The notes under the pieces: model-generated | What the model was told of the DNA's origin: nothing | The model's database searches: none | The model's input: the letters and a program-made list of their open reading frames with translations, nothing else | Position numbers and translations under genes: made by a program | Shown: in pieces, positions 9,776-54,842 of the stretch | How positions within the stretch are numbered: the first letter of the stretch is position 1 | How the letters are laid out: each line of letters opens with the position of its first letter | NCBI RefSeq assembly: GCF_000243415.2 | Contig: NZ_KI912270.1 | Span: 6,839,837-6,903,836, forward strand | Source of the DNA: Mycolicibacterium tusciae JS617 | Lineage (GTDB): Bacteria; Actinomycetota; Actinomycetes; Mycobacteriales; Mycobacteriaceae | Length of the DNA stretch: 64,000 nt | Reading direction: 5' to 3'

Positions 9776-9790
9776 GAGAATGCCATTATC
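9776..9790. promoter_or_regulatory. Operator candidate, GAGAAT-N3-ATTCTC family (site 1)
   Basis: GAGAAT-GCC-ATTATC, one mismatch from a perfect palindrome, 33 bp upstream of the Mas gene start at 9743. A repressor there would overlap the promoter of the Mas-Mas-IspD-like operon. Confidence 0.55.
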
Positions 9791-9885
9791 CTTTTTTGCG
9801 TATCGCCGCGACGATACCTTGCCCCCACAGGCCCGACAAATGCCGACCTTCCTGCGGAAATGCTATTTACACGCTGTGCGCACGC

Positions 9886-11349
9886 TCAGCGGTGTCGTTT
9901 GTGCAACTCGTCCTTCACCACCTTGCCGGTGGCGTTCAACGGCAGGTTGTCGAGGAACTCTACATACCGGGGCACCTTGAATCCCGCCATTCGTTGGCGG
10001 CTCCACTCGATGAGATCGTCGCTGCTGATCGCCGGTCCACCCGTCTTGGCGACGATGAACGCCTTGCCCACCTGACCCATCCTTTCATCCGGCACGCCGA
10101 TCACGGCCGCCTGCGCGACGGCCGGATGCTCCAGCAGGAACCCCTCGATCTCGGCAGGATAGGCGTTGAAGCCGCCGACGATGAACATGTCCTTCTTGCG
10201 GCCGACGATCCGCAGCCGTCCCGCCGCGTCGAGTGTGCCGAGGTCGCCGGTGTGCAGCCACCCGTCGTCATCGATCGTTTCGGCGGTGGCGGCGGGATCG
10301 TCGAGGTATCCCTGCATCACGGTGTAACCGCGTACCAGCACCTCGCCATCGTCGGCGATCCGAACCTCGACTCCGTCGCACGCGCTCCCCGCGGTGGTCG
10401 CGATGTCTTCGAAGGAGTCGCCTGGCCTCGACAGCGTCACCGTGCCCGCCTCGGTCAAGCCGTAGCCGGTGGCCAGCGTCTGGAACGGCAACTCCTCATG
10501 CACTCGCCGGACCAGTTCCACGGGAATATCCGCAGCACCGGTCACACCTGCGCGCAGGGTGGACAGCTTGCCCTTGTCGTCGACCGCAAGTAGTGAGTGA
10601 TACAGCGTGGGCGGCCCGGGAAGCATCGTGATCCGCTCGGCGGCAATCAGTTCCACGACACGGTCGATATCGAAGACGTCCACCGGAACCATGGTCGCCC
10701 CGCGCGTGAATGACGCGATCAGTCCCGCCTTGTAGCCGAAGGTGTGGAAGTAGGGGTTGACCATCAGATACCGGTCACCCTCGCGCAGGTCGGCGAGCTC
10801 ACACCATTCGGCGTAGAGACGCAGATTCTGCTGGTGATTCATCATCACACCCTTCGGGCGCCCGGTCGTGCCCGAGGTGAAGATGATGTCGGAGATGTCC
10901 GTGCCCTCCAGACCGTCGGCCTCCAACGGTGAACCGCCGGAAAGGAAGTCGGACTTCAGATCGATCACCGGAATACCTGCGGGGGCGGAGTAGTCCTGGC
11001 CGAGAAATCCCGTCTGGGCCATCACCGCCTTCGCCCCACTGCGGGTGATGATGTCGGCCGCCTCTTCGTCCTTGAAGCGCGTATTCACCGGAACGAGGAC
11101 TCCGCCGGCGGTCAAAAGGCCGAATGCGGCGATGATCCACTCGGCGCAGTTGGGCGCCCAGATCGCTACCCGATCGCCCTTTCCGATACCGAAATCAGCG
11201 AACGCTCCTGCCGCGCAACGAATCCGATCGACGACCTCGATGAAACTGAGGCGCAGCGGACCGTCGACAACCGCTTCTGCATCGCCGAACCGGTCCGCCG
11301 CGCTCAAGACCATCTCGGGGATGGTCTTGAAGGTTTGGGTGCCCGTCAC
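9886..11349 (-). CDS. Acyl-CoA synthetase, FadD3-like
   Basis: 487 residues from GTG 11349, overlapping the upstream stop as GTGA. It has the adenylate-forming motifs in order: the P-loop IIFTSGTTGRPKGV (about residue 155), NPYFHTFGYKAGL, the LPGPPTLYHSLL segment, YGLTEAGTVTL, GWLHTGDLGTLDAAG, and the C-terminal lysine motif NATGKVVKDEL. The FHTFGYKAG and LPGPPT segments and the overall length resemble M. tuberculosis FadD3, which activates a steroid-derived alicyclic propionate. It probably makes the CoA thioester of a ring-containing carboxylic acid, but the substrate is inferred. It is co-transcribed with the amidohydrolase just upstream. Confidence 0.9.
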   Translation of the reverse strand: MTGTQTFKTIPEMVLSAADRFGDAEAVVDGPLRLSFIEVVDRIRCAAGAFADFGIGKGDRVAIWAPNCAEWIIAAFGLLTAGGVLVPVNTRFKDEEAADIITRSGAKAVMAQTGFLGQDYSAPAGIPVIDLKSDFLSGGSPLEADGLEGTDISDIIFTSGTTGRPKGVMMNHQQNLRLYAEWCELADLREGDRYLMVNPYFHTFGYKAGLIASFTRGATMVPVDVFDIDRVVELIAAERITMLPGPPTLYHSLLAVDDKGKLSTLRAGVTGAADIPVELVRRVHEELPFQTLATGYGLTEAGTVTLSRPGDSFEDIATTAGSACDGVEVRIADDGEVLVRGYTVMQGYLDDPAATAETIDDDGWLHTGDLGTLDAAGRLRIVGRKKDMFIVGGFNAYPAEIEGFLLEHPAVAQAAVIGVPDERMGQVGKAFIVAKTGGPAISSDDLIEWSRQRMAGFKVPRYVEFLDNLPLNATGKVVKDELHKRHR

Positions 11350-12536
11350 ACGGTGACGAGGCGACCAAGGTTGCCGCCCATGATCTTCGCCTGATCCTCC
11401 ATGGAGAGGTGCTCGAGCGCGGTCACATAGTGGGTCGGCTCCGCAAGGCCTTCAGGGTGCGGCCAGTCGGAGCCGTAGAGCACCTGGTCGACGCCGATCA
11501 GGTTGATCAAATCGTCGATGCCCTCTTCGTAGAACGGGCTGACGAAGATGCGGTTCTTGATCTCCTCCATCGGGTTACCCGGGAAGGCTTCGGGCGCCTT
11601 CTTGTAGACCTCGGCCATGGAGTCCAGAAGCGGGAACATCCACTTCGACCCGGCCTCGACGATGCCCACCTTCAACTTCGGGAACCGGAACAGTGCACCG
11701 TGAATTACCCAGGAGGCCACGGCATCCTGGATCGGCCGCCACTCGTTGAGGATCGACATCGCGTTGGTCTGGAACGGCAGCATTTCCTGCGCGGCACCGT
11801 CCCACTCCGAGGTGTAGCGGGAGTAACCGCTGTCGCTGGAGTGCATGCCGACGAAGACGTCGTACTCGACGCACTTCTGCCAGAACGGGTCGAACTCGGG
11901 CAGCGCGAACGACCGCGGGCCGCGGAACCCGGGCACCGGCGCGGGGCGGATGAGGATCGCGCGGGCACCGCGCTTGACCGCCCAGTCCAACTCCTCGATC
12001 GCCTTCTCGACGATGGGCAGGGTGATCACCGGGGTGGTGAAGATGCGGTTCTTGTAGTTGAAGCCCCACACCTCGTGCAGCCACTCGTTGAGCGCGTGGA
12101 TGATGACGTGGATGGCGAGCGGATCGTCGGAGAGACGCTCCTCGATCAGGCTGGCCAGCGTCGGGAACATCAGCGAACGGTCCAGACCCAGTTCGTTCAT
12201 CTTCTCCAGCCGCGGCTCGGGCTCGAAGAAGGCGGGAATCGCCCGCATCGGCTCACCGAAGAGTTCGCGCTTGCTCTTGCCGTCGGGGTTGCCGAACTTG
12301 AAGTACTCCTCCCATGCGCCCGGCTTGGCGACCACCGAGAAGGTGGGGTTCGGGATGTAGTTGCTGATCTGGCCCTTCAGCGCGATCTTGGTGCGGCCGT
12401 TGATCTCGACGTACTGGACGACGTCCTTGTACTCCTTGGGTAGGTACTTGGTCATCGCCTCCGGCGGCTCGTACAGATGATTGTCCGCGTCGAACAGCGG
12501 AAACGGAATGTCGACCCGGTGTGACAGCTGACCCAT
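11346..12536 (-). CDS. Amidohydrolase_2 family metal-dependent hydrolase
   Basis: 396 residues, a TIM-barrel protein of the ACMSD-like amidohydrolase-2 family. The N-terminal metal region reads FPLFDADNHLYEPPEA, a DxDxH variant instead of HxH. Mid-barrel His occurs in VFVGMHSSDSGY. The C-terminal catalytic segment VLYGSDWPHPEGLAEP keeps the conserved Asp. Family members hydrolyse or decarboxylate ring-derived acids. It overlaps the FadD gene by 4 bp and has a perfect palindromic operator candidate 23 bp upstream. The two other amidohydrolases at 54946 and 56070 belong to the same broad family but are not close copies. Confidence 0.88.
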   Translation of the reverse strand: MGQLSHRVDIPFPLFDADNHLYEPPEAMTKYLPKEYKDVVQYVEINGRTKIALKGQISNYIPNPTFSVVAKPGAWEEYFKFGNPDGKSKRELFGEPMRAIPAFFEPEPRLEKMNELGLDRSLMFPTLASLIEERLSDDPLAIHVIIHALNEWLHEVWGFNYKNRIFTTPVITLPIVEKAIEELDWAVKRGARAILIRPAPVPGFRGPRSFALPEFDPFWQKCVEYDVFVGMHSSDSGYSRYTSEWDGAAQEMLPFQTNAMSILNEWRPIQDAVASWVIHGALFRFPKLKVGIVEAGSKWMFPLLDSMAEVYKKAPEAFPGNPMEEIKNRIFVSPFYEEGIDDLINLIGVDQVLYGSDWPHPEGLAEPTHYVTALEHLSMEDQAKIMGGNLGRLVTV

Positions 12537-12558
12537 GAAAGACTCCTTATCCTCTTAC

Positions 12559-12573
12559 GAGAATCCTATTCTC
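12559..12573. promoter_or_regulatory. Operator candidate, GAGAAT-N3-ATTCTC family (site 2, perfect)
   Basis: Perfect palindrome GAGAAT-CCT-ATTCTC in the 59-bp gap between the amidohydrolase start (12536) and the upstream fadD stop (12596). It makes the amidohydrolase-fadD3-like pair a separately regulated unit. Confidence 0.65.
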
Positions 12574-14188: not shown

Positions 14189-14224
14189 TGGTACGGCTGC
14201 TCCTTGGCGTCGCGCAACGATGCT

Positions 14225-14243
14225 ATTCTCCGCTGAAGAGAAT
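14225..14243. promoter_or_regulatory. Operator candidate in divergent fadD/echA promoter (site 3)
   Basis: Perfect inverted repeat ATTCTC-N7-GAGAAT. The right half also begins GAGAATGCC, as in site 1. It lies 27 bp upstream of the hydratase start at 14271 and 69 bp from the fadD start. The same N7 arrangement occurs at 16508-16526. Confidence 0.6.
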
Positions 14244-14270
14244 GCCAATACCGGAGACGGAGAACGCTTG

Positions 14271-16497: not shown

Positions 16498-16507
16498 GAC
16501 GGGCACT

Positions 16508-16535
16508 GTTCTCTCTAGACGAGAACGCCATTTCC
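16508..16535. promoter_or_regulatory. Operator candidate upstream of DUF35-thiolase pair (site 4)
   Basis: GTTCTC-N7-GAGAAC at 16508-16526, overlapping GAGAAC-GCC-ATTTCC at 16521-16535. The outer N7 spacing matches site 3 and the GCC spacer matches sites 1 and 3. It ends 15 bp before the GTG start at 16551. Confidence 0.55.
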
Positions 16536-18645: not shown

Positions 18646-19257
18646 TCACGATCCATCGTCCGGAAGTGGCTCGCCCTCCAGACGGCGAAGCCACTGCTCG
18701 CAATACGCGAACGTCTCGGCGTGACCGGTGGTCATGCCCAGCGCGCGTTCCATCACAAGACTCTGTGACACGCTGGTCGCGAAGACCGTCCACACCACAG
18801 GCGGCACCTCAGTGGATGCGACACCGTAGCGCGCGAGCGCGGCAGCGATCGCCGCGTTCTGTTCCTCCCGGAAACGTTCCGCGTAATAGACGATCTCGGC
18901 TCGCAGTGCCTTGCGGTGATTGGCCAGGCCCATGAATTCCATCGTCAGCCGGGTGGCCTCCGGCTGGGTACTGAATCTCCAAAGCGACCAGAGCGGCTGA
19001 GGCGAGGCCAGCGCCGTCTTGAGAACGCTCAGCCCGGCTTCGGCCATGCGCCGGAACACCGCGAGGAACAGATCCTCCATGGTCCGGAAGTAGTAGTGGA
19101 CGAGCTGAGGCTTGAGGCCGGCCTTCTCGGCGACACGGCGCGAGGTGACCGAGGCGTAGCCCTCCTCGAGAAGCAGCTGCTCTGCGGCATCGAGCAGCAC
19201 CCCGCGATTCTTCGCCTCCGGCGCCCCGATCCTTCGCAGCCCAGAGATCTCGGTCAT
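18646..19257 (-). CDS. TetR family transcriptional regulator
   Basis: 203 residues. The HTH is in residues about 22-62: LDAAEQLLLEEGYASVTSRRVAEKAGLKPQLVHYYF, the canonical TetR layout. The ligand domain contains RLTMEFMGLANHRKALRAEIVYYAERFREEQ. It is divergent from the P450 gene at 19451, and the 193-bp gap holds a twin TGCTNAGCA element that is a better candidate for its own operator than the GAGAAT palindromes. It may sense a CoA thioester or lipid intermediate of the pathway. Confidence 0.9.
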   Translation of the reverse strand: MTEISGLRRIGAPEAKNRGVLLDAAEQLLLEEGYASVTSRRVAEKAGLKPQLVHYYFRTMEDLFLAVFRRMAEAGLSVLKTALASPQPLWSLWRFSTQPEATRLTMEFMGLANHRKALRAEIVYYAERFREEQNAAIAAALARYGVASTEVPPVVWTVFATSVSQSLVMERALGMTTGHAETFAYCEQWLRRLEGEPLPDDGS

Positions 19258-21144: not shown

Positions 21145-21173
21145 ATTCTCACATGTGCGGGAATCAAATTCTC
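21145..21173. promoter_or_regulatory. Operator candidate between divergent exported-protein genes (site 5)
   Basis: GGGAAT-CAA-ATTCTC at 21159-21173, preceded by another ATTCTC half-site at 21145-21150. It lies just upstream of the minus-strand start at 21138 and 44 bp from the plus-strand start at 21218. Confidence 0.5.
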
Positions 21174-21749: not shown

Positions 21750-23471
21750 TCAGATCGGCAGCAGGTCCTTCCACGTCTTGGGCGCGTGCCCCGCGGCGAC
21801 GTTCGTCAGAGTCTGTACCTGCCCATCTGGCGTCACGAACTGTCCGGTGTTCGGGTCATAAGGCACCGCGGCGACCGACGGTCCGCCGGAATCGTTGCCA
21901 CTGAACCCACTTGGCGCTGCAGGTACTCCCCCACCGTGCGGCACCTCAGTCGCCTGCGGAAGGCCGGGTGCCGGCGTGACAGCGCCGGCCGGGGCGGCCG
22001 GCATCGGCACACCGTTCACCGAGTTGCCGGGCGGCGGTGGCGGCAACGGTGAAGGCGAGGGAGGTGCTGGCGGCGGGGCAGGCGCCGCAGGGGGCGGTGC
22101 GATCGGCGTGTAGAGGGGATTGGGTACACCGGGAGGCGTCCCCGACGGCACCGCGCCTGGAGGCAGAGGTGTCCCCTGGAGCGGTGCATAGATTCGTTCT
22201 TGAAAGTCGACCCGATCATCGAGGGCGAACCCCTGCCAAATCATGTTGGGGTCGAACGGATATGGCCCTGTCGAATGAGGGCGAAGGGCAATGGGCTTGA
22301 AGCCCTCTGGGTCGTTGCACAGTTCGACGGTCGGGGCACGCCTGCCCGGGTGTCCCATACACGGATAATTACGGGCGCCTCGCACGCCGATCGGCGAATC
22401 CTGCGGCAGTTTGCAATACACGTCATCCGGTGTGTCGATGACGGTCACGTCGGCCGGTGAGCGCCACTGCGACGGCGGCAGGAATCCGACCGTACACGGC
22501 ACCGGATCCGAAATGGTCAGGGCGAAATCGCTGAGAGGGTAGCCAGTGGGGTTGTTCTTGCCGAGGCCAAATTCCTGCTGAGCGGCTAGCGCATTGGGAA
22601 AAACAACCAGCAGCTGTTCGAGCGACGGGTTGTATGTGACGAGGATCTGCCCGAGGGTCGTGAGGTTCGCCAGCAGCACCGGCAGCGTCGGCTTGATCTG
22701 GTTCAGCAGCTGCGAAACCTCTTGCGCGAAGCCGGGTCCACGCTCCAGGAGTGTGCGGATCTGAGGATCGTTCTGCGCGAGCTGGGCAGTGACCCCCTCC
22801 AGACTTCGCGCCCACGTCCGGATGGAGTCCGCGGTTTCGGCCTGTGAATCCAGCAGCGGCCCACTGTCGTCGATCAGCCCGCGCGACTCGTCGGACACGG
22901 CGTTCAATCGCTCGGACAGCGTTGCACCGGAGTCCAGCAGCGAGCCGAAGTCTGGACCGGCGCCGTTGAACGCCTTGAACGTCTCGTCGAGAAGGTCAGA
23001 GATCCTGTCACCGGGGATGCTGTTCACCAGCTCGCTGACCTGATCCAGCATCGGACCGACCTGTTGCGGAATCGTGGTGTTGGCCACTGAGATTCGCGAT
23101 CCGTCTTCCAGGTACGGTCCCGAGTCGGTCCGTGGGCGCAGATCCACGTACTGCTCGCCGACCGCCGACACGCTGAGCACACTGGCCTCGAGATCCGCGG
23201 GGACCTTCGGTGATGTGTTGAGCGACATCACGGCTTCGGCCCCGGTCTCGGTCAGCTGCACCGATTTCACCTTGCCGATCTGTACCCCGCGGTACGTGAC
23301 ATTGGCGAAGCGGTAAAGACCCCCTGCGGCAGGCAATTCCAGGGTGACGGTCAGTCGGCCGACGTTGAGCAGCGTCGGCAACTGCATGTAGGCGAACAGC
23401 ATCACCGTCACGCCGACGATCGACGCGATCGTGAAGATGATCAGCTGGTTACGGACGAAGCGGGTCAGCAT
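21750..23471 (-). CDS. mceF: MceF, Mce-family lipid transporter subunit with Pro-rich tail
   Basis: 573 residues. N-terminal membrane anchor at about residues 10-35 (LIIFTIASIVGVTVMLFAY), then the MCE domain (GGLYRFANVTYRGVQIGKVKSVQL, about residues 45-120), then the long helical region (VSELVNSIPGDRISDLLDETF onward). After residue 435 comes a Pro-rich, low-complexity tail (PPPAAPAPPPAPPSPSPLP). MceF is the last core subunit of the MCE hexamer that carries lipids across the periplasm. The ATG of mceF overlaps the mceE stop by one base. Confidence 0.93.
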   Translation of the reverse strand: MLTRFVRNQLIIFTIASIVGVTVMLFAYMQLPTLLNVGRLTVTLELPAAGGLYRFANVTYRGVQIGKVKSVQLTETGAEAVMSLNTSPKVPADLEASVLSVSAVGEQYVDLRPRTDSGPYLEDGSRISVANTTIPQQVGPMLDQVSELVNSIPGDRISDLLDETFKAFNGAGPDFGSLLDSGATLSERLNAVSDESRGLIDDSGPLLDSQAETADSIRTWARSLEGVTAQLAQNDPQIRTLLERGPGFAQEVSQLLNQIKPTLPVLLANLTTLGQILVTYNPSLEQLLVVFPNALAAQQEFGLGKNNPTGYPLSDFALTISDPVPCTVGFLPPSQWRSPADVTVIDTPDDVYCKLPQDSPIGVRGARNYPCMGHPGRRAPTVELCNDPEGFKPIALRPHSTGPYPFDPNMIWQGFALDDRVDFQERIYAPLQGTPLPPGAVPSGTPPGVPNPLYTPIAPPPAAPAPPPAPPSPSPLPPPPPGNSVNGVPMPAAPAGAVTPAPGLPQATEVPHGGGVPAAPSGFSGNDSGGPSVAAVPYDPNTGQFVTPDGQVQTLTNVAAGHAPKTWKDLLPI

Positions 23472-24811
23472 CAGCCGCCACCTCCCGCCGGCGGTGCCGG
23501 AGCCGGCGGGGCCGCTGGCGCCGGACCGGCCGGCGCCGCGTCGCCGTATGGACCGGCGAAGATCTGCGAGCCTTCCAGCGTCGGATTAGGTCCGAACTGC
23601 GGTCTGGCCGGTGGAGGCGGAACCATCGGTAGCACCGGCCCGAACATGGTGTTGATTTGCGCGCCTGGGGGCGCCTCGGGCGCAGGAGGCAGCTCGCTCG
23701 GCGGCGGCGCAACACCCACCATGATCGGATCGTAGGCGTAGTTCAGAAAATAGGGATCACCTGGGGCGGGGATGAGCTTCGCGTTCTCGTCTCCCCAGCG
23801 GGTACCGAGCAGGATGCCGCGCTTGAATCGCGGATACGTGAGGTCGAACGTGGCGATGAGGTTGATGTAGTCGCCCTTGGAGATCTTGTCCGCGAATGCC
23901 GGACCGTACGGGAACGCAGTCGCGAAGATGAGCGCCTGGCTGAGATCGGGACCGATGTCGGCGAGCGATTTCAGCGCCGGCTCGAGGTTTTGCAAATTCG
24001 TCACCAGATCGTCGCCGGCGTCGTTGACCAGCTGGGTGGCGGTGTCGCTGAGGGTTCCCAGCCTATCCAGCGCCGTTGTCAGGTTGGGCCGCTCCTTGAC
24101 GAGCACGTCTATCGCGGGCGGAATCTCTTTGAGCGCCCGGTCGATCACGTCGCGTTGACTCGCGAACTTTCCCGCCACGCGGTTGAGCTGTTTTATGGAC
24201 TCGATGATGTTGTCGCGCTGGGCGTCCAGCGTTCCCACGAATTCGTCAAGCCGGGTGAGCAATTCCCGAATCTGTGGCTCACGCCCCGACAGCGCAGTGC
24301 TGAAGTTGTGGATGACATCGCCGATCTGCCCCAGCCCGCCTGCGTTGACGATGGTCGACAGCGACGAGAGCGTCTGCTCGGTGGTCGGATAGGTCGACGA
24401 CTGGTTCAGGGGAAGGGTGGAACCGGGTTGCAGGCGACCCCTTGGCTGTTCCCCCAGCGGTGTATTCAGTGCGAGATGCATAGATCCGAGGAGGCTCGTC
24501 TGTCCCACGGACGCGACCGCGTTCTCCGGTATGACGACGTCGGGCTTGACCGACACCTCGACGTTCGCGTGCCAGGCGTCGACGGTCATCTTGCCCACGC
24601 TGCCGACGATCACGTCGTTGACCATCACCGGCGAATTCGACTCGAGCGTGGCGACATTGGGGACCTGAACGGTGTACTGCACCGAGTCGGGACCGCGGCC
24701 GACCGCTCCGGGTAGCGGCAGCGAGTTGATCCCCTGGTAGGCACAGCCCGTCATCGTCACGGCCAGACAGCACCCCGAGACAACCAGCGCCTTCGCGCGA
24801 TTGCGGATCAT
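23471..24811 (-). CDS. mceE: MceE, lipoprotein subunit (LprK/LprN type)
   Basis: 446 residues. The signal peptide ends in a lipobox LAVTMTGCA with Cys23 as lipidation site, as expected for the fifth gene of an mce operon. The MCE domain follows (VQYTVQVPNVATLESNSPVMVNDVIVGSV, about residues 45-110), then the helical needle region. The C-terminus is rich in Pro/Ala/Gly (PAPAAPPAPAPPAGGGG). It overlaps mceD by 4 bp and mceF by 1 bp. Confidence 0.93.
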   Translation of the reverse strand: MIRNRAKALVVSGCCLAVTMTGCAYQGINSLPLPGAVGRGPDSVQYTVQVPNVATLESNSPVMVNDVIVGSVGKMTVDAWHANVEVSVKPDVVIPENAVASVGQTSLLGSMHLALNTPLGEQPRGRLQPGSTLPLNQSSTYPTTEQTLSSLSTIVNAGGLGQIGDVIHNFSTALSGREPQIRELLTRLDEFVGTLDAQRDNIIESIKQLNRVAGKFASQRDVIDRALKEIPPAIDVLVKERPNLTTALDRLGTLSDTATQLVNDAGDDLVTNLQNLEPALKSLADIGPDLSQALIFATAFPYGPAFADKISKGDYINLIATFDLTYPRFKRGILLGTRWGDENAKLIPAPGDPYFLNYAYDPIMVGVAPPPSELPPAPEAPPGAQINTMFGPVLPMVPPPPARPQFGPNPTLEGSQIFAGPYGDAAPAGPAPAAPPAPAPPAGGGG

Positions 24812-26298
24812 GATGGTCCTTCCGCAGGCAGCAGCGGCCCGGGCGGCGGCGGGGCAGCCGCGGTCGGCGGGAGCAGCATGTTCTGGACCGACGGTGTGCC
24901 AGGTCCAGTCTGGATGTTGGGCGGACCAGGAATCGGGGCGCCCGGGAACAATGCCGGTGACGGTATGGCGGGCACTTCGTCGTGCCCGTACAGGCCCCGC
25001 GGCATCTCAGGCAGGCCAACGCCCCCGTAGCCGGGTGGTGGGGCAACGTCGCCGATACCCGTGTAGGCCGAGACCGCGGGCGGCGGCTCGGGCGGATCAC
25101 CCGGCCCGGTACCGCCGGGAGCGAGCTTGGGGTCCGTGTAGATCAGCCGATCGGGGCCCGGGGCTCGCCTCAGGTAGGGGTTTATCGGCAGCGGCACGTT
25201 GTTGAAGTTCAGCAGCCGCAGCGCCGGACCGAGGTACTGCTCGCAGAGCTTTGCCGTCTCGGGTCCAGTGGTGTTGGCGACGCCGCCGATCAGGCCGCAA
25301 ATGAAGTACACCGGGTTGGAGAAGTTGACGAACGAAAATGCCCCGCTGACACCGCCGGTCGGTGGGTAGTAGATGTTCAGATAGTTGGCGATTGCGTTGG
25401 GCGCCACGTGCAGGACATTCTCCAGCGGAAGCCGATTGTCGACGAGGTTCTGGGTGACGGCAGCCAAGCTTCTGATCTGCTCGGCGGTCTGCTCGCGGCT
25501 GCCTGCGACGAAGCGTTGGACCTCACCGATCGCGACCGACAGATCCGAGAGGGCAGCGTCCAGATCGGACCTGCTGTTGTCCACCACGCTGGTCAGGCTG
25601 GCCAGGCGGTTCTGGAACAGCACGATCTGCTGCTTGCTGTCGCGCAACGCGCTGACAAAGATCTGCAGATTCTTGATGATATCGACGATGTTGCCGCTGC
25701 CTTCGGCGAAGATCCGTGCGACACCGGACAATTCAGCAATCGTCGATCGAAGCTTTTCGCCGTTACCGTCCATCGCATTGGCGGCGCTGTCGATGAACCT
25801 GCCGATAGAAGTGTCGGTGACCGCGCCCTGGGAGCCGGGTTTGGGTCCCAATTCGGTTGCGAGCCGCATCAACTGGGTCTTGACCTCATCCCACTCGACA
25901 GGGACTGCCGTCCGGTCACTGGGAATCACCGCGCCGTCATCCATCGTCGGCCCGTCGCCCTGCCGGTATGCTGGTGTCAACTGAACGTAGCGGGCCGCGA
26001 TCAGGTTCTGCGCGACGATCACGGCTTTAGCGCCCGCGGGCACCGGAACGCCGCGGTCGACCTCCAAGACGAGTTTGGTCTGCGTGCCCTCCGGCTCGAT
26101 GCTCGCGATCCTGCCGACCTTCACGCCAGACACTCGCACCTCGTCCCCCGGGTAGATCGCCGTCGCCGTGGGGAAATAGGCGGTGATCTTGTTCGGGCCG
26201 AAGAAGATCTGGCGCACCAAGAACACCGCTCCGGCCACCAGCACAACGGCTAGCAGCACAGCGACCCACGTCGCGAGGCGCTTACGGGTTGCCATCAT
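24808..26298 (-). CDS. mceD: MceD, Mce-family protein with Pro-rich tail
   Basis: 496 residues. Anchor at residues about 8-30 (LATWVAVLLAVVLVAGAVFLV), then the MCE domain with KITAYFPTATAIYPGDEVRVSGVKVGRI, a helical region, and a Pro/Gly-rich tail beyond residue 385. Two adjacent ATG codons (26298 and 26295) are possible starts, both inside the end of mceC (17-bp overlap). It is part of the same hexameric transporter. Confidence 0.92.
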   Translation of the reverse strand: MMATRKRLATWVAVLLAVVLVAGAVFLVRQIFFGPNKITAYFPTATAIYPGDEVRVSGVKVGRIASIEPEGTQTKLVLEVDRGVPVPAGAKAVIVAQNLIAARYVQLTPAYRQGDGPTMDDGAVIPSDRTAVPVEWDEVKTQLMRLATELGPKPGSQGAVTDTSIGRFIDSAANAMDGNGEKLRSTIAELSGVARIFAEGSGNIVDIIKNLQIFVSALRDSKQQIVLFQNRLASLTSVVDNSRSDLDAALSDLSVAIGEVQRFVAGSREQTAEQIRSLAAVTQNLVDNRLPLENVLHVAPNAIANYLNIYYPPTGGVSGAFSFVNFSNPVYFICGLIGGVANTTGPETAKLCEQYLGPALRLLNFNNVPLPINPYLRRAPGPDRLIYTDPKLAPGGTGPGDPPEPPPAVSAYTGIGDVAPPPGYGGVGLPEMPRGLYGHDEVPAIPSPALFPGAPIPGPPNIQTGPGTPSVQNMLLPPTAAAPPPPGPLLPAEGPS

Positions 26299-27397
26299 CG
26301 GGAAGATCTCCTGGTTGTGGAATCCCGTTGACGGGGAACGGAAGTTGGGCCCGGGGCCCGGCCGTGTCCGGTGGCTGCCCGATGTTGTTGCCGTTCCGGA
26401 AGCCGAAGATGTAGTCGAGGAACGGCTGCAGCAGCTGTGCCGGCTGAATGTTTGGGATGAACGCGTTGTAATAGGCGCCGTTGGCCACGATCTCGCCCTG
26501 GGTCAATTCGTATTTCCGCAGCCCCTTGAGCGCTTTGCCGATATTTTCGGCGTTCTTCTCGAGCATCTGGTTGACCGCGTTCATCTTTTCCAGCGCCGGT
26601 GCGAGTTCCTGTTCGTTCTCGGCGACGAGACCGGTGAGATTCCGCGACAGCGCCGACGTATTGGCGAGTAGATCGACGATCGCCTGGCGACGATCGTTGA
26701 GCACGGCAAGAAGGTCGTTGGCGTTGAGAATCAAGCTGTTGACCTGCTGACTGCGCTCGGACAGGATTCCCGTGACGTCCCCTGCGGTTTTCAGCAACTC
26801 GGCAAGGCTGTCGTTGCGGCCGTTCAGCGATCTGGACACCCGCGACAGACCGTCGAACGTCGGTCCCAATTGTGGTGCGACCTGATCGAGCGTCTGTGCC
26901 AATGTATCCAAAGACTCGTTGAGAGTGTCGGTTTCGGTGGCCGCGGTGTTCGCGGTCAACTCACTGACCGCGTCGGTCAACGAATACGGTGACGACGTTC
27001 TGGTGACCGGGATGACGTGGTTCGGTGGCAGCGTGCCGCTACCTTCCGACTCCAGCGCCAGCACCCGCTCACCGAGCAGGGTGCCGGTGCGGATGTGCGC
27101 GGTGGTGTCCGAGCCGAGCGCGTACTTGCCGTCGATGGTGAAACCCACCAGCGCATCGCCGTTGTCGAGTTCGATCGACGAGACCGACCCGACCTTAATG
27201 CCCGAAACCGTCACATCGTTGCCGGTCGCAAGGCCGCCGGCTTCGGTGAACAGCGCTTGATACCGCAGAGCAGTGGCCCAGGAATACAGGCGCTCCGGCT
27301 GCAACCCGATCGCGATCACGAGGACGATCAGCACCACACCGATGAAGCCGGCCTTGATGAGGGACGCACCCCTGTACTTGTTCATTCGTCTCGGCAC
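26282..27397 (-). CDS. mceC: MceC, Mce-family protein
   Basis: 371 residues. N-terminal anchor AGFIGVVLIVLVIAIGLQPE near residues 12-33, then the MCE domain with YQALFTEAGGLATGNDVTVSGIKVGSVSSIEL, then a long amphipathic helical stretch and a short Pro-rich end. It overlaps mceB by 16 bp at its start and mceD by 17 bp at its end, which fits tight translational coupling. Confidence 0.92.
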   Translation of the reverse strand: MPRRMNKYRGASLIKAGFIGVVLIVLVIAIGLQPERLYSWATALRYQALFTEAGGLATGNDVTVSGIKVGSVSSIELDNGDALVGFTIDGKYALGSDTTAHIRTGTLLGERVLALESEGSGTLPPNHVIPVTRTSSPYSLTDAVSELTANTAATETDTLNESLDTLAQTLDQVAPQLGPTFDGLSRVSRSLNGRNDSLAELLKTAGDVTGILSERSQQVNSLILNANDLLAVLNDRRQAIVDLLANTSALSRNLTGLVAENEQELAPALEKMNAVNQMLEKNAENIGKALKGLRKYELTQGEIVANGAYYNAFIPNIQPAQLLQPFLDYIFGFRNGNNIGQPPDTAGPRAQLPFPVNGIPQPGDLPDDGNP

Positions 27398-28407
27398 CTC
27401 CCCGTCTCTTGCCTTATCCAGGGGAACTGAACGGTACGACCCTCGAGATCGCTTGCCCGGAACGTGATTCCGCAGATGTAGTAGGGGAAGAACGCGCCAT
27501 AGGAGCCCACCCGGGCCAGCTTGCGGTAGATATCAGGTAGACGCTGCAGCGTCGCGTCGAAGGTCGCCTTGTCGGCGTCCAGATACTCCGCGAGCCGCTT
27601 CACTTGGTCGATGGTGCCGTCCAGCGGAGGACGCGCGCGCCCAAGCAGGTCGGACAGCGACGCGGTGCCGTTGTCGAGCGACGTGATGGCTTCGCCGATC
27701 GGGTCACGATCCTCCGAGAGGCCGCGCACCAGTTGTTCGAGTTTGTCGATGGCCTCGGTGAACTGGTCACCGTCGTCGGAGAGCGTCTTCAAGGTCGTCC
27801 TGAGCTCGTCGATGAGCTGCTCGATGACCTGGTTGTTGTCCGCCAACGCATTTGAGAACGACGATGCCCTCGAGAACAGCGATTCGATGGTGCCACCCTG
27901 GCCCTGCAGGATCTGCAGCAGCGATGCCGAGAGCGCGTTGACATCCTGCGGGTTGAGGCCTTGAATTACCGGTTTCAGACCGCCGAGTAGCAGGTCGAGG
28001 TCCAGCGCGGGGGCGGTGCGGTCGATGGGAATCTGAGCGCCCTTCGGCATGATCCTGGTAGATCCAGGCGCGTCGACGAGTTCGAGATAGCGGTCGCCGA
28101 CCAGGTTGAGGTACTTGATCTGAGCCTTGGTGCCGTCTGTCAGCCTGATGTCGCGACCGGCATCGAACTTCACCAGCACGTTGCGGTCGGCATCCAGCGA
28201 CACTTCCTGCACTGTGCCTACCCGGATGCCGGCGACACGCACGGTGTCTCCGGTTTCCAGCCGGGAGGCGTCCTTGAACACCGCCGAGTAGTCGTTGGTC
28301 GAACCGGTCTGAACTTCGGCGAACGTGGCGAAAAGGAACGCCGTCAACAGGATCATGACGATCGCGAAGATCCCGAACTTGATAAAAGTTCCACGCATCC
28401 CCGTCAC
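27382..28407 (-). CDS. mceB: MceB, Mce-family protein
   Basis: 341 residues from GTG 28407, which overlaps the mceA stop as GTGA; ATG 28398 is an alternative, and a longer frame to 28467 lies inside mceA. Anchor IKFGIFAIVMILLTAFLFATF, MCE domain with YSAVFKDASRLETGDTVRVAGIRVG, then a helical region, ending with a CGITFRASDLEGRTV segment. Confidence 0.92.
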   Translation of the reverse strand: MTGMRGTFIKFGIFAIVMILLTAFLFATFAEVQTGSTNDYSAVFKDASRLETGDTVRVAGIRVGTVQEVSLDADRNVLVKFDAGRDIRLTDGTKAQIKYLNLVGDRYLELVDAPGSTRIMPKGAQIPIDRTAPALDLDLLLGGLKPVIQGLNPQDVNALSASLLQILQGQGGTIESLFSRASSFSNALADNNQVIEQLIDELRTTLKTLSDDGDQFTEAIDKLEQLVRGLSEDRDPIGEAITSLDNGTASLSDLLGRARPPLDGTIDQVKRLAEYLDADKATFDATLQRLPDIYRKLARVGSYGAFFPYYICGITFRASDLEGRTVQFPWIRQETGRCRDE

Positions 28408-29603
28408 CCCGGCATTCCGATCATCGCGCTGTTTCGCGGCGGTCCCGGGATTGGACCGAACAGCCATTGCTTGAGCCCGTCGGAGTTGAGCAGAATTCCC
28501 TGGTTTCCATACTTGAACGGGTTCGAACCCACGTCCGAAACGAGAAACGGCGGACGGAAGTCAGGTGGGACGTCGGGCAGACCCAATTCCCTACAGAAGG
28601 ACCGGCCTCCGGTCGAAGCCGCGACTTTGGGCAGATCCTCCGGCCAGCGATAACGCTCCACCCCGAACGTAAGACCGGCATTGAACAGGATGTGCGAATA
28701 CTGAAAGTTCGCGGCGTGGACGAATGGGACGAGGGCGCCGACGCCGCAGCCCACCGTCTCGTGGTACTCCCCGAGCAGTGACGTTGTCGGCACGAGAACG
28801 TGCAGAGCGTCCGTCAGGGCTTGTCGATTGCCGCCGATCACCTCGTTGCCGATATCGGCCAAACCGATTGAGCTGATCAAGAATTCGTCGAGCTGCTGCT
28901 GTTCCTCGACGATGGAGTTGCTGAGCTTGATCGAATTATCGAGGATCCCGACGAGATCGGGTGCGGCATCGCCGTACGCGGCGAACGTCGGGACCGACGC
29001 TTCGATGTCATGCGACAGGTTCGGCAGACTCGGATTGATCTTCGCGAGGAACGCATTGAAGTCCTCGAGCGTCCGGCCGAACTTCTCGCCACGCCCGTCG
29101 AACGCCGTCGAAACCGCACCGAGGGTTTCATTGAGTTTCGCCGGATCGATCTTGTCCAGGACGGTGACGAGGCGCTGGAAGACGGTGTTGATCTCGGTGG
29201 TGACGTGTTGGCCCTGAATGACCTGCCCGCCGTGCAACCTCTGTGATTCTGGGTTCTTCGAGGGTATGAGATCGACGAATTTGGCGCCGAACACCGTCGT
29301 TGATGTGATGTCCACTCCGACGTTGGAGGGAATCAGGTGCAGCTGCGACGGATTCATGTCCAGCTTCAGCACGGCCTGGCCGTCGGGCTTGGTCGCGATC
29401 GACGCGACCTTTCCGACCTCCACGCCGCGCATCTTCACCTTGGCGTCAGGGTTCATCACCAGGCCGGCGCGATCCGAGACCACGGTCACCGGAACGGTTT
29501 CGATGAAGCTGCCCCGGAAGAGACCGATTGCCATCGCGACAATCGCGACAATCGCGACAATCGCGGCCAAACCGGACAGTGCGCGCGCGGTGATTGAATT
29601 CAT
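28404..29603 (-). CDS. mceA: MceA, Mce-family protein
   Basis: 399 residues. The membrane anchor near residues 9-30 is encoded by a 9-bp tandem repeat that makes IVAIVAIVAMAIG. The MCE domain (VPVTVVSDRAGLVMNPDAKVKMRGVEVGKV, residues about 37-115) and helical region follow. The C-terminal third includes the GCGVGALVPFVHAANFQ segment typical of MceA. As first MCE protein in the operon it follows yrbEB by 12 bp. Paralogue number (mce1-mce8) cannot be assigned without alignment; it is not the mce4 locus by gene neighbourhood. Confidence 0.93.
   Translation of the reverse strand: MNSITARALSGLAAIVAIVAIVAMAIGLFRGSFIETVPVTVVSDRAGLVMNPDAKVKMRGVEVGKVASIATKPDGQAVLKLDMNPSQLHLIPSNVGVDITSTTVFGAKFVDLIPSKNPESQRLHGGQVIQGQHVTTEINTVFQRLVTVLDKIDPAKLNETLGAVSTAFDGRGEKFGRTLEDFNAFLAKINPSLPNLSHDIEASVPTFAAYGDAAPDLVGILDNSIKLSNSIVEEQQQLDEFLISSIGLADIGNEVIGGNRQALTDALHVLVPTTSLLGEYHETVGCGVGALVPFVHAANFQYSHILFNAGLTFGVERYRWPEDLPKVAASTGGRSFCRELGLPDVPPDFRPPFLVSDVGSNPFKYGNQGILLNSDGLKQWLFGPIPGPPRNSAMIGMPG
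29533..29565. repeat. 9-bp tandem repeat in mceA membrane anchor
   Basis: The unit ATCGCGACA occurs three times in a row plus a 6-base partial copy. It encodes repeating Ile-Val-Ala in the MceA transmembrane segment. Unit number changes keep frame and would lengthen or shorten the anchor by three residues. Confidence 0.85.
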
Positions 29604-29615
29604 GGCTGTCTGTCG

Positions 29616-30473
29616 CTATCCGGAGAGGTTGAAGTTGCCGTTGGAACCGTAAACGGACAGTGACACCAGCAGGGTGACCGATACGACGACGATGAGGCTG
29701 GTGCGCACCGCGTTGCCCACCGCGACACCGACGCCCGACGGTCCGCCAGTGGCGAAGTAACCGAAGTAAGTGTGGATCAGCAGGATCGTGATGGCCATCA
29801 ACACCGCTTGCAGAAACGACCACAACAGGTCGATCGGGTTGAGGAACGTGTCGAAGTAGTGGTCATACAATCCGCCGGACTGACCGAATATCACCACCGT
29901 GGTGAACTGCGACGCCACGAAACTCAAGATGACCGCGATCGAGTACAGCGGGGTGATCGCGATCATTCCCGCGATGATGCGCGTGCTCACCAGATACTCC
30001 ACCGGCCGGATCGCCATCGCCTCCAGCGCGTCGATCTCCTCGTTGATGCGCATCGCCCCCAACTGAGCGGTCACGCCTGCGCCGAAGGTGGCCGCCAGGC
30101 CGATGCCTGCCACCACCGGCGCGGCGATGCGCACGTTGATGAATGCGGCGAGGAATCCGGTCAACGCCTCGATGCCGATGTTGCCCAGCGACGAGTAGCC
30201 CTGCACCGCCAGTGTGCCGCCGGCGGCCAGCGTCAAGAAGCCGACGATCACGACGGTGCCACCGATCATCGCCAATGTGCCTGCGCCCATGGAAATCTCG
30301 GCGATCAACCGGATGATCTCCTTGCGGTAGTGCACGAAGGCGTGCGGCATACCACCCAACGACTTCAGGTAGAAGATCATGTGGTCGCCGATACCGCTCA
30401 GCCACGCCACCGGGCGCCGCGCCCCAGCGGTGGCCCGCGGATACCTCGACTTCAGGATCGTTGTTGTCCCCAT
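29616..30473 (-). CDS. yrbEB: YrbEB, MlaE-type permease of Mce transporter
   Basis: 285 residues with about five or six hydrophobic segments. The MlaE-family signature is present: TFGAGVTAQLGAMRINEEIDALEAMAIRPVEYLVSTRIIAG (around residues 130-170), where EEIDALEAM is the conserved cytoplasmic coupling helix. It forms the inner-membrane permease together with YrbEA; the ATPase (MceG/Mkl) is encoded elsewhere in mycobacteria. It is 4 bp after yrbEA. Confidence 0.94.
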   Translation of the reverse strand: MGTTTILKSRYPRATAGARRPVAWLSGIGDHMIFYLKSLGGMPHAFVHYRKEIIRLIAEISMGAGTLAMIGGTVVIVGFLTLAAGGTLAVQGYSSLGNIGIEALTGFLAAFINVRIAAPVVAGIGLAATFGAGVTAQLGAMRINEEIDALEAMAIRPVEYLVSTRIIAGMIAITPLYSIAVILSFVASQFTTVVIFGQSGGLYDHYFDTFLNPIDLLWSFLQAVLMAITILLIHTYFGYFATGGPSGVGVAVGNAVRTSLIVVVSVTLLVSLSVYGSNGNFNLSG

Positions 30474-30477
30474 CCCG

Positions 30478-31290
30478 CTATCCCGTCGTCATCCGGATGC
30501 CGATGGCCGTCACGAGAACATTGATCACGAACAACGCCATGAACGCATAGACCACCGTCTCGTTGACCGCGTTACCCACCGCCTTGGCGCCACCACCGGT
30601 GATGGACAAGCCCCGGTAACACGCGACCAGCCCGGCGATCAAACCGAACAGAGCGGCCTTCACACACGAGATGATGACCTCCGGCACCCCGGTCAATAGC
30701 GTGATGCCCGCGGCGAACGCCCCTGGGTTCACGTCCTGCACGAAGACCGAGAACAAATAGCCGCCCAGGATGCCGATGATTACCACGAAGCTGTTGAGCA
30801 GCAACGCGACCAACCCCGCCGCGAGCATTCTGGGCGTCACCAACCGCTGCACCGGGTTGATACCCAGCACCTCCATCGCGTCGATCTCCTCGCGAATGGT
30901 GCGCGACCCCAGATCCGCACAGATCGCCGTCGAACCCGCACCGGCCACGATCAACACCGTCACCAGAGGGCCGACCTGTGTCACCGCGCCGAAGGCCGCA
31001 CCCGCCCCCGACAGGTCAGCCGCACCCAACTCACGAAGAAGAATATTTAGCGTGAAGCTGACCAGCACCGTGAACGGAATCGCCACCAGCAGCGTCGGCG
31101 CCAACGCCACGCGGGCGATGAACCAGCACTGGTCCAAGAACTCCCGCCATTGAAACGGCCGACGAAACACAAACCGCACCGCATCGGCCGACATGGCGAA
31201 GAGACCACCGACAGCCTGCATCGGACCCGCGAAGCTGCTCAACTGAGGCAACCCGGGCGACCACCGCTCCGGCCCGCTACCCCGCGCCAC
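30478..31290 (-). CDS. yrbEA: YrbEA, MlaE-type permease of Mce transporter
   Basis: 270 residues from GTG 31290, with GGGAGGAG shortly upstream. MlaE signature ICADLGSRTIREEIDAMEVLGINPVQRLVTPRMLA, and hydrophobic segments throughout. First gene of the eight-gene mce operon (yrbEA-yrbEB-mceA-F). A 290-bp gap separates it from the CoA-transferase gene on the same strand, so read-through from that unit is possible as well as an internal promoter. Confidence 0.94.
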   Translation of the reverse strand: MARGSGPERWSPGLPQLSSFAGPMQAVGGLFAMSADAVRFVFRRPFQWREFLDQCWFIARVALAPTLLVAIPFTVLVSFTLNILLRELGAADLSGAGAAFGAVTQVGPLVTVLIVAGAGSTAICADLGSRTIREEIDAMEVLGINPVQRLVTPRMLAAGLVALLLNSFVVIIGILGGYLFSVFVQDVNPGAFAAGITLLTGVPEVIISCVKAALFGLIAGLVACYRGLSITGGGAKAVGNAVNETVVYAFMALFVINVLVTAIGIRMTTG

Positions 31291-34354: not shown

Positions 34355-34369
34355 GGAAACTTCATTCTC
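34355..34369. promoter_or_regulatory. Operator candidate upstream of ALDH-CoA-transferase-(mce) unit (site 6)
   Basis: GGAAAC-TTC-ATTCTC, perfect in its right half, 46 bp upstream of the ALDH start. GAGAAC half-sites follow at about 34396 and 34416. A further GTTCTC at 34529-34534 lies ahead of the divergent SDR gene. Confidence 0.45.
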
Positions 34370-34576
34370 ATCACCGGCGAATCATACATTCGTTACAAGA
34401 GAACTCAAGGAAAAGACGAGAACTCCCGCTGCCTGCACTTAACGGTGCGACAATCATCGATGAAACGTCTCACCAGTGCGAATCTGACCTCTACCGTGTC
34501 TTGCGGGATTGCAGCGCACGAGAGTACGGTTCTCATAATCGGAAGGACGATTCTTTATGCATGACCGGCAGGTGGG

Positions 34577-44565: not shown

Positions 44566-45117
44566 GTGACACGACAGGATTGGCTAGTCGGGGCAGACCG
44601 TCACACCAAAGCCGCCGAACGAATCTATGCTGCGGCCGCTGAATTGGTAGTCCAGCATGGCTTTGAGGGGCTGACGATTGACGCCTTGGCATCGAAGGTG
44701 CACTGTTCGCCCGCAACCGTATATCGGAACGTAGGCGGCAGGGCGGCGATCATCCAGGGCGTAATGCGTCAGATGTCCGAACGCATTGTCGAGCAAGTAG
44801 AGAACGCAATCGCCGAACTCGCGGGACCCGAACGGGTCGTGACCGCTATCGTTGTCGCGTTGGATCGCATCCGCGCAGAACCACTCAGTTCCCTTGCACT
44901 GGGCACTATTCGTGCTGGTCATAACAGCGGATGGTTAACCAATTCACCGCTCGTCGCCGATCTGGCTGAACACATGATTGGTCGTAGGGACCCAGTAGCT
45001 GCGCAGTGGTTAGTTCGCGCCACGCTAGCGCTGCTGTATTGGCCAGTAGAAAATCCGACAGTCGAACGTGAAATCGTTACGCGGATGATCGGTCCTACCT
45101 TCGAGGCACAGCCCTAG
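44566..45117 (+). CDS. TetR family transcriptional regulator
   Basis: 183 residues from GTG 44566. HTH in AAAELVVQHGFEGLTIDALASKVHCSPATVYRNVGGRAAI (about residues 22-62), with TVYRNV in place of the common YYHF at the end of the recognition helix. The ligand domain is short. It closes the 38.8-45.1 kb module and probably controls the P450 upstream (228-bp gap). It is the second candidate regulator for the GAGAAT palindromes, though none lies near it. Confidence 0.88.
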   Translation: MTRQDWLVGADRHTKAAERIYAAAAELVVQHGFEGLTIDALASKVHCSPATVYRNVGGRAAIIQGVMRQMSERIVEQVENAIAELAGPERVVTAIVVALDRIRAEPLSSLALGTIRAGHNSGWLTNSPLVADLAEHMIGRRDPVAAQWLVRATLALLYWPVENPTVEREIVTRMIGPTFEAQP

Positions 45118-51667: not shown

Positions 51668-51695
51668 TATTCAGTACCGCCCTTCTGTACCGTGA

Positions 51696-52493: not shown

Positions 52494-52498
52494 CGGTA

Positions 52499-53674: not shown

Positions 53675-54666
53675 TAGAAGCTCCTGTATTCCGCGGCGAT
53701 CACGGCGCGATGCTCGGCAGCCCCACCCAGCAGAAGTTCACCGGCCTTGGCTCGCTTCAGCGCGAATTGCAGATCGTTCTCCCACGTAAATCCCATGGCG
53801 CCGAACAGCTGCAATCCATGGCGAAACACCAATGCCTGCGCCTCTCCCGCGGATGCCTTGGCCATTGCCGCGGCAAGGCGGCGGCGAGGGTCGTCGGCTG
53901 CGATGGTCAAGGCGGCGAAGTAGGACAGCGCGCGGGCACGCTCGGTCGCGACGTGCATGTCGACAGCCTTATGCTGCACGGCCTGAAAGGTTCCGATCGC
54001 CACACCGAACTGCTGACGCTGCTTCACGTGCTCGAGCACCAGATCGAGGATGCGTTGGCAGGCGCCGACCGTCGTGATGGCCATGCCGGTGAGAGCCACG
54101 TGCCGGGCCTTTTCGACGTCGACCCGGACGCGGTCGGTGTCGGGTACGTGTGTACCGGCGAAGGTGACCTCCGCGACGTGCAGGACCGGATCGAAGACGT
54201 CGCTGCGCCGGGTGGCGGCCTCACCGGCGTCGACGAGGAAGACCCCGGCCTCAGTGACCACCGCGAGCCTCTCCGCGCGGTCACCGTCGAGTACGTGATG
54301 CGCCGTGCCGTTCAGGACCCAGCCCTGGGCGTCGCGATGCGCGGTCACCCCGCTGTACACAGCGGTGCCGGCCAGCTGCGGATCGAACCGGTCACCAGCG
54401 AGGGGCGCGAACTGAGTCAATGTCGCCAGAAACGGGGTCGGATCGGTGGCGCGGCCCAATTCCTCGGCCACGATCGCGAGTTCGACCGCGTTCTCCGGAT
54501 CGTTGAGCTCCGTCCAGCCCGCGTCGACGTAGGTCTTCCACAGCGGCATGGGGTCTTCGCCGTTCTCGGCGATTCCGCGAATGAGCGACGCCGGGCAAGC
54601 CTTGGTGACCGCGTCCCGCACGGTCTCCTGCCACAGCCGCTGATCGGCGTCGAATTCCAGTAACAC
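53674..54666 (-). CDS. Acyl-CoA dehydrogenase, small subunit of a probable heteromer
   Basis: 330 residues from GTG 54666, which has GGGAGG about 9 nt upstream. The frame opens at 54714, but that start would place the palindromic operator 54701-54721 across the start codon; 54666 is better. The protein has the N-terminal helical domain (QRLWQETVRDAVTKACPASLIRGI), a beta-domain and FGVAIGTFQAVQHKAVDMHVATERARAL near the end of the C-terminal domain. It lacks the EIQRxxIA tail. First gene of the nine-gene operon. Confidence 0.88.
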   Translation of the reverse strand: MLLEFDADQRLWQETVRDAVTKACPASLIRGIAENGEDPMPLWKTYVDAGWTELNDPENAVELAIVAEELGRATDPTPFLATLTQFAPLAGDRFDPQLAGTAVYSGVTAHRDAQGWVLNGTAHHVLDGDRAERLAVVTEAGVFLVDAGEAATRRSDVFDPVLHVAEVTFAGTHVPDTDRVRVDVEKARHVALTGMAITTVGACQRILDLVLEHVKQRQQFGVAIGTFQAVQHKAVDMHVATERARALSYFAALTIAADDPRRRLAAAMAKASAGEAQALVFRHGLQLFGAMGFTWENDLQFALKRAKAGELLLGGAAEHRAVIAAEYRSF

Positions 54667-54700
54667 GTGTGGCCTCCCGAAGACCTCGTCATGGGTTGGC

Positions 54701-54721
54701 AACGAGAATAGCATTCTCGTT
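54701..54721. promoter_or_regulatory. Operator candidate upstream of the nine-gene operon (site 7, perfect)
   Basis: Perfect palindrome with 9-bp arms around an AGC spacer; the core is GAGAAT-AGC-ATTCTC at 54704-54718, extended by AAC and GTT. The best match of the family in the window. It lies 35 bp upstream of the start at 54666. Confidence 0.75.
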
Positions 54722-54827
54722 AGATGCTGTAACCGTTCTCTTGATTCGACTACCTCGTTTCACGAACCGAGCGCCGAGCGACTGACCAGCGCACACCCTG
54801 ACCTGCGAAGAAGTAAGCGTTCCGCTG

Positions 54828-54842
54828 GAGAACAAGATTCTT
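54828..54842. promoter_or_regulatory. Operator candidate upstream of amidohydrolase operon (site 8)
   Basis: GAGAAC-AAG-ATTCTT, two mismatches from the consensus palindrome, in the divergent 279-bp region. It is about 103 bp upstream of the GTG start at 54946. Together with site 7 it would let one regulator control both divergent operons. Confidence 0.5.

Follow-up and report, generated by a model that had tools for sequence, protein, structure and literature searches.

The described systems closest to the one reported here are the regulons of KstR and KstR2. The KstR regulon combines a TetR-family regulator, a large ring-catabolism cluster and a short palindrome near start codons, the length of which is given as 14 bp (PMC3068626). 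For KstR2 the same source describes a motif, AnCAAGnnCTTGnT, that was found first in front of the regulator gene and then in nearby promoters; it reports three copies per genome, motif-to-start distances of 22, 22, 23, 39 and 82 bp and an unregulated neighbour at 285 bp (PMC3068626). The C-19+ cluster of M. smegmatis, likewise of the steroid type and equipped with KstD isoenzymes, is described as a second cluster that evolved apart from the KstR regulon (PMC5962712). This report deals with a 15-bp palindrome, GAGAAT-N3-ATTCTC (in general form GAGAAY-N3-RTTCTC), which recurs in a stretch of 64,000 nucleotides of Mycolicibacterium tusciae JS617 (contig NZ_KI912270.1, positions 6,839,837 to 6,903,836; hereafter the window) and in the DNA beyond it. 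The sites are linked to a candidate TetR-family gene, and the regulon predicted from them is, by the tests given below, a TetR-type catabolic regulon that is distinct from those of KstR and KstR2.

The likeness to the KstR2 system lies in the placement of the motif before the regulator gene and in nearby promoters, and in its distance from the start codons: the site centre is mostly 23–58 bp from the nearest called start. The sequence differs, however, and about 16 site places are spread over 175 kb. With KstR the system shares the type of regulator, the large cluster and the short palindrome, but the canonical KstR is encoded at C4:5913319 (339.9 bits), ~0.94 Mb from the sites, and the palindrome has 15 bp instead of 14 bp and lacks the AACnnGTT core that the initial annotation quotes for KstR. 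The candidate TetR scores only 20.4 bits with the KstR model (cut-off 280), and KstR was rejected as the regulator. KstR2 was rejected because its motif differs, the KstR2 protein itself not having been searched for in the genome. Thus, the initial annotation was correct in setting the motif apart from both. The C-19+ cluster resembles the present one in general content, as a second steroid-type cluster with KstD isoenzymes there and putative KstD-type proteins here. The regulator of that cluster is of the PadR type. Here, a PadR regulator was dismissed, as the three PadR matches of the genome (C4 5.77, 5.36 and 6.62 Mb) all lie elsewhere.

The genome that carries contig C4 (G000; the genomes compared are referred to by G numbers) comprises 7,306,413 bp on 4 contigs, of which C4 accounts for 6,945,570 bp. 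There are nine perfect copies of GAGAAY-N3-RTTCTC in this genome and all nine are located within one catabolic block of ~175 kb. They form two groups on C4 (C4:6852395-6910082 and C4:17699-78801), which would be two parts of a single block on the assumption that C4 is circular. This continuity is supported by G020, in which homologs of genes from both sides are arranged in order on one contig (~5.36–5.55 Mb). Counted on in window coordinates, the strong sites extend from 9776 to 184521 (~175 kb, 2.4% of the genome) and thereby exceed both the end of the window and the end of the contig. The recurrence seen in the initial annotation is confirmed, but its span of 45 kb was too small.

The palindromic motif family is real. 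Exact GAGAAYNNNRTTCTC is present twice in the window (12559 and 54704) where shuffled sequences predict 0.01 copies, and 14 places have at most two mismatches to it compared with 5.7 expected, a number reached by none of 100 shuffles. Several of the two-mismatch matches (e.g. 4560, 23774 and 49212) are probably due to chance. In the whole genome, 40 sites with at most one mismatch are found, compared with 3 for the pattern read backwards. Of the imperfect one-mismatch sites 26 out of 31 are outside the block, and therefore single-mismatch sites alone are weak evidence. A weight matrix was seeded with the nine perfect sites and settled on nine intergenic matches. At 18 bits or more it detects 12 places in the 346-kb region, 9 of which fall between gene calls, and it detects none in control DNA, a sample of 400 kb taken at 20 places of the same chromosome; the former number is partly circular because the matrix was built from sites of the region, the latter is not. 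The contrast fades at 10 bits or more (30 in the region vs 21 in the control; 17 vs 4 when only intergenic DNA is considered). A self-iterating matrix with a low threshold was discarded, as it drifted onto codon patterns of coding DNA, and the stricter matrix was used instead. Thus, in the genome scan that had been set in advance as a refutation test, perfect and high-scoring matches concentrate in the block and not in the control DNA.

The distance between the arms is fixed. Converging arms with a spacer of 3 number 9 (all distinct) in the region, 46 (28 distinct) in the cluster stretches of relatives and 216 (42 distinct) in 80 named TetR loci. All other spacers from 0 to 21 yield 0–1 distinct sequences in the region and in the relatives' stretches and 0–4 in the named TetR loci. 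Since the relatives' stretches were partly chosen around sites, their total is not a rate. The central three bases vary freely, which is the behaviour of a protein-binding palindrome. In 256 distinct 31-base contexts of sites with at least 18 bits the arms GAGAAT and ATTCTC are nearly invariant, with T (81%) or C (18%) as the sixth base, whereas the flanks show weak preferences only; the invariance of the arms is partly circular, as the contexts were chosen by score.

The sites are mostly kept in orthologous promoters, the second refutation test set in advance. In G020 and G034, 28 cells for the orthologs of site-bearing promoters score far higher than 36 control promoters (Mann-Whitney p 4e-7), although the cells are not independent because divergent genes share sites. 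The cells derive from a list of 19 site-bearing genes, of which three (8910, 20728 and 21257) failed all filters in every genome, whilst that at 183059 has no row in G020 or G034. A site is missing in three cells (the 136131 gene in G020 and the 177936 gene in both genomes). Among the 36 controls, a score of 15 bits is attained by three (123421, 171937 and 78208), which are neighbours of sites. The promoters with the strongest conservation are those of the amidohydrolase (12559), of the acyl-CoA dehydrogenase operon (54704) and of the SDR gene 178906. Furthermore, 47 of the 56 sites with at least 17 bits in the relatives' stretches L161-L200 have a homolog of a region gene starting no more than 400 bp away, some of these homologs being only 30–50% identical; 9 sites have none.

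The gene most likely to encode the reader of these sites is located at C4:28722-29378 (window coordinate 134456-135112), ~70 kb beyond the window. Its product, TetR134456, has 218 residues and carries an N-terminal TetR helix-turn-helix (HTH) domain (PF00440, 31.3 bits vs a cut-off of 24). At least 150 loci of the genome match the TetR HTH model (150 of 324 candidates were scored), and for this reason the gene neighbourhood matters for the choice of the reader. TetR134456 has one perfect site upstream of its gene and another one just downstream. Among 85 ortholog loci, mostly named Mycobacterium or Mycolicibacterium (the best 80 of 395 and five more), a site of at least 17 bits is present upstream in 83 and downstream in 63, and the upstream site is nearly always GAGAATACTATTCTC or GAGAATAGTATTCTC. 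Residues 7–58 and 60–84 are invariant among 28 aligned orthologs. For the co-occurrence tables the 148 genomes were reduced to the 88 of the same genus, and genomes with at least 5 perfect sites were counted as site-rich. The ortholog is present in 72 of the 88 genomes, 69 of which hold 5–12 perfect sites, while none of the 16 genomes without it holds five or more. In the 60 genomes of other genera there are 0–4 perfect sites each and the best match to TetR134456 has an E-value of 8.9e-21. From the neighbourhood and the conservation of the sites we infer that GAGAAT-N3-ATTCTC is, with good probability, the operator of this one TetR-family protein, and that the protein acts as a repressor. The initial annotation's regulon interpretation is thus supported. 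Its expectation of a TetR-type reader is likewise the best-supported reading, but neither of the two TetR genes that it named (18646 and 44566) is the best candidate.

Two features upstream of the TetR134456 gene were observed in addition. A conserved GGTACAGTC stretch is likely its -10 box. A short open reading frame, the TGA of which overlaps the TetR start codon, is found upstream of L023:8722 and its orthologs in 82 of 86 loci and has 12 codons in 56 of them. Seven of the eight 12-codon peptides listed begin with MFS, and GGTACAGTC precedes the ATG in the 12-codon cases listed. It is likely that this frame encodes a leaderless leader peptide. Elsewhere on the contig, three TetR HTH matches (C4:4555105, 5041740 and 5341516) have equal scores (49.2 bits) and equal open-frame lengths (212 residues), which suggests a repeated element.

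Several observations weigh against TetR134456 as the reader. Carriers of two other regulators of the block, TetR18646 and IclR171937, are site-rich in 69 of 70 and 69 of 69 cases, compared with 69 of 72 for TetR134456. The co-occurrence table does not separate the three regulators; any gene of the cluster would co-occur with the sites. In G026 and G063 the TetR is retained and its N-terminal region is identical, but the 400 bp upstream and the ~250 bp downstream of its gene contain no site of at least 12 bits; each of these genomes holds a single perfect site. G009 has one site (GAGAACGCGGTTCTC) and no TetR ortholog; this site and the only one of G063 occupy an identical intergenic position (around position 1501 of L205 and L204). 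These exceptions indicate that some perfect matches are background or belong to something else. In addition, a distance of ~120 bp separates the upstream site from the TetR start, and ~52 bp separate it from the start of the divergent acyl-CoA dehydrogenase gene. It may serve only the divergent gene, and autoregulation is therefore putative.

TetR18646 is encoded within the window (18646..19257, minus strand) and co-occurs with the cluster. That it reads the sites, alone or jointly with the distant TetR134456, appears unlikely to us. All but one of its 70 same-genus carriers are site-rich and none of the 18 non-carriers is, and in G056 its gene is divergent from that of the candidate TetR with one site between them. 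On the other hand, no site of at least 10 bits is listed near its own gene within the window, and matches with 52–60% identity are present in G091 and G120, two genomes of other genera with one perfect site each. G026 has no match for it, but has the candidate TetR and retains a single perfect site before an APH-type kinase gene, the orthologs of which in G007 (78% identity) and G086 (74%) also bear the site with other central bases. In G045 the reading frame of TetR18646 is split between two frames, yet 10 perfect sites are left, including 7 in the interval 5.48–5.62 Mb, and the candidate TetR is intact with sites on both sides. A sequencing error is a possible cause of the split. Taken together, G026 and G045 disfavour the proposal of TetR18646 in the initial annotation. 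Its other TetR, encoded at 44566..45117 (plus strand), is not conserved with the cluster and was rejected: a match with an E-value of 1e-40 or lower is present in 63 of the 148 genomes, with more than 60% identity only in G028 and G021 besides G000, and the match is far from the cluster in G020, G031 and G034.

The probability is smaller still for the linked IclR protein, encoded at window coordinate 171937-172650 next to an Mhp-type operon. A match to it at E 1e-40 or better is found in all 69 site-rich genomes of the genus and in none of the other 19. In G000 a perfect site lies between the IclR gene and the divergent hydrolase operon, and a site of at least 17 bits is present upstream of the gene in 12 of 18 fetched loci (12 of 19 including L172; the short row L161 and the cut row L171 are excluded from these scores). 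The best models for the protein, none above its cut-off, are of the PcaR/PobR type and the MhpR type (PRK09834). These model matches and the adjoining mhp-type genes make a local role more natural. Moreover, G026 and G056 lack a match at E 1e-40 but retain sites, G026 before the shared kinase target and G056 before the candidate TetR, which is divergent from the TetR18646 ortholog there. In G045 the IclR frame is broken by two in-frame stops while the 10 perfect sites persist. G026, G056 and G045 thus argue against IclR171937 or TetR18646, or both, as the reader. A structural or replication-related repeat without operator function is very improbable: the motif is palindromic and clustered within a single region, and the copy shared by G063 and G009 has an intergenic position with no clear promoter role, but its spacer is fixed with a free centre, and the sites stand mostly 23–58 bp before start codons and are conserved gene by gene across species. 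A location around the replication origin was dropped on a weak ground, namely a DnaA-like stretch noticed by visual inspection, without a search, near C4 5.4 Mb, far from the block.

With TetR134456 as the preferred reader, the sites within the window are described as putative operators. All positions given in the initial annotation are right. Its statement that all sites are intergenic applies to most of them, but the site at 14225 overlaps the start of one gene call. Gene calls were made by a simple script, which missed at least two real genes (including those of TetR 44566 and the 3-carboxyethylcatechol 2,3-dioxygenase). At 9776..9790, GAGAATGCCATTATC (one mismatch, 21.1 bits) is 39 bp from the start of a minus-strand gene ending at 9743; counterparts of 18.3 and 21.1 bits precede the homologous gene (52–56% identity) in G020 and G034. 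The perfect site at 12559..12573 precedes an amidohydrolase (11346-12536) and a FadD3-family ligase (9886-11349) and has an equally distant counterpart of 25–26 bits in G020, G034, G086 and G028. The site GGGAATCAAATTCTC at 21159-21173 (one mismatch) has an extra ATTCTC half on its 5' side (feature 21145..21173). It is located between the genes 20728-21138 (minus strand) and 21257-21742 (plus strand, PknI/Rv2253-type domain), and a counterpart of 17.2 bits lies between the homologues in G020. The degenerate site GGAAACTTCATTCTC at 34355..34369 (two mismatches) precedes an aldehyde dehydrogenase (32786-34324) and a CoA-transferase (31581-32789), and the stretch is near-identical in G020 and G034. 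Absent from the initial annotation is GAGAGTACGGTTCTC at 34520..34534 (one mismatch), 50 bp before an SDR gene (34577-35278); this site is unchanged letter for letter in G020 and G034, the two relatives whose clusters were read without a break. The feature at 54701..54721 contains the perfect site 54704 with 9-bp arms and precedes the acyl-CoA dehydrogenase operon (45311-54666, minus strand); it reaches 25–26 bits in G020, G034, G086, G028 and G007. Finally, GAGAACAAGATTCTT at 54828..54842 (one mismatch) precedes the amidohydrolase operon (54946-63296, plus strand), with 15.7–20.9 bits in G020, G034, G086 and G028.

Two further putative operators in the window have a composite form, with the arms in the everted arrangement RTTCTC-N7-GAGAAY, as the initial annotation had pointed out. 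The one at 14216..14252 has the core ATTCTC-N7-GAGAAT (14225-14243) and is located between the divergent genes of a fadD (12596-14185) and an enoyl-CoA hydratase (14220-14996); its GAGAATGCCAAT is kept in G020, G034, G086 and G028. The one at 16499..16535 has the core GTTCTC-N7-GAGAAC (16508-16526) and includes the site 16521 (two mismatches). It precedes the genes of a BbsA-like (DUF35-type) protein (16551-16970) and a thiolase/lipid-transfer-type protein (16985-18139), and its arrangement is repeated in G028. The everted form with a spacer of 7 is present in 2 copies in the region and 9 in the relatives' stretches, where other everted spacers occur 0–2 times in both sets; in the named TetR loci it occurs only twice, compared with 9 copies for N11, 7 for N1 and 6 for N6. 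Outside each inner arm a weak partner is found: in 11 sites, the mean at a spacer of 3 is 3.14 of 6 matches, compared with 0.82–2.18 at fifteen other spacers. These outer partners at the 3-bp spacing indicate that a composite site can be read as two imperfect 15-bp palindromes with centres 22 bp apart on the same helix face. Two adjacent dimers are known from QacR, the operator of which is given as 28 bp (PMC4482099). Here, the composite sites suggest a comparable pair, but on two separate 15-mers 22 bp apart that cover 37 bp in total.

The distances between sites and starts make repression by promoter blocking the natural reading, as for KstR2, where repression accompanies distances of 22–82 bp. 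A TetR dimer would bind the 15-bp palindrome and block transcription from about 16 site places across the block. At weaker promoters, two dimers may bind side by side on imperfect palindromes separated by two helical turns. A CoA thioester or another pathway intermediate is the probable inducer.

Family searches covered a minority of the block genes. The site-bearing operons in the window encode the amidohydrolase and FadD3-family ligase, FadD and EchA, the BbsA-like protein and thiolase, the aldehyde dehydrogenase and CoA-transferase, the SDR, the acyl-CoA dehydrogenase operon and the second amidohydrolase operon, which includes a small Rieske protein, a Complex1_51K protein and a lipid-transfer-type protein of 551 residues. 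Between sites lies an mce transport operon (21750..31290, minus strand), in which three genes were checked and found to encode two Mce/MlaD proteins and one MlaE permease. Beyond the window, sites accompany two P450 genes and a Rieske oxygenase adjoining a CMD-family protein. Other site-bearing operons there encode an acyl-CoA dehydrogenase, a thioesterase, a mycofactocin-type SDR, a MeaB-like GTPase and a FadD. The operon from 171819 encodes an MhpA-type 3-(3-hydroxyphenyl)propionate hydroxylase (1121 bits, above the cut-off of 853), a 3-carboxyethylcatechol 2,3-dioxygenase (533.3 bits, above 291), an HsaD-like hydrolase (128.8 bits against 400) and a KstD-type protein. The block has two KstD-type FAD proteins; with 1089.6 bits, one of them exceeds the general PRK12835 cut-off (837 bits), and both stay below the cut-offs for KstD equivalogs. 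It may be observed that Mhp-type meta-cleavage genes and a KstD-type protein share one operon beside an IclR gene of the PcaR/MhpR type (C4:62-67 kb; L201:9625-13064 and beyond).

The products of the block suggest a pathway that would act on alicyclic isoprenoid compounds, steroid-like or other, and would end in aromatisation and meta cleavage. This route would comprise uptake by Mce, P450s, a Rieske oxygenase, CoA ligases, acyl-CoA dehydrogenases and the thiolase with its BbsA-like partner, and would end with KstD-type dehydrogenases followed by the 3-carboxyethylcatechol (Mhp-type) meta-cleavage branch. A tentative wider reading, to which we give slightly less than even weight, is that this is a third large mycobacterial regulon for ring compounds beside those of KstR and KstR2. 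In it, one TetR would control an island of 175 kb for a non-cholesterol alicyclic isoprenoid, with KstD-type aromatisation, Mhp-type cleavage and operator strength graded from single perfect to phased double palindromes. A literature search found no description of the regulon and no name for the regulator and substrate of the block; printed motif logos are not text-searchable and an earlier description is possible. The block is large and its sites are common in the genus, with at least 5 in 69 of the 88 genomes compared. The motif yields a list of predicted co-regulated operons and one leading candidate repressor, which offers a direct way to the growth substrate by derepression of the block or by ligand screening. 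The linked steroid-type enzymes are relevant to strains that make steroid synthons.

Two minor observations concern the surrounding DNA. The stretches 38312-38855 and 42222-43041 of the window (544 and 820 bp) have no called gene. Outside the window, GAGAATGCCAATACC is found at window coordinate 188947 (L026), before a methylmalonyl-CoA mutase gene (187343-188920), and its letters are those of the right half of the composite site at 14225.

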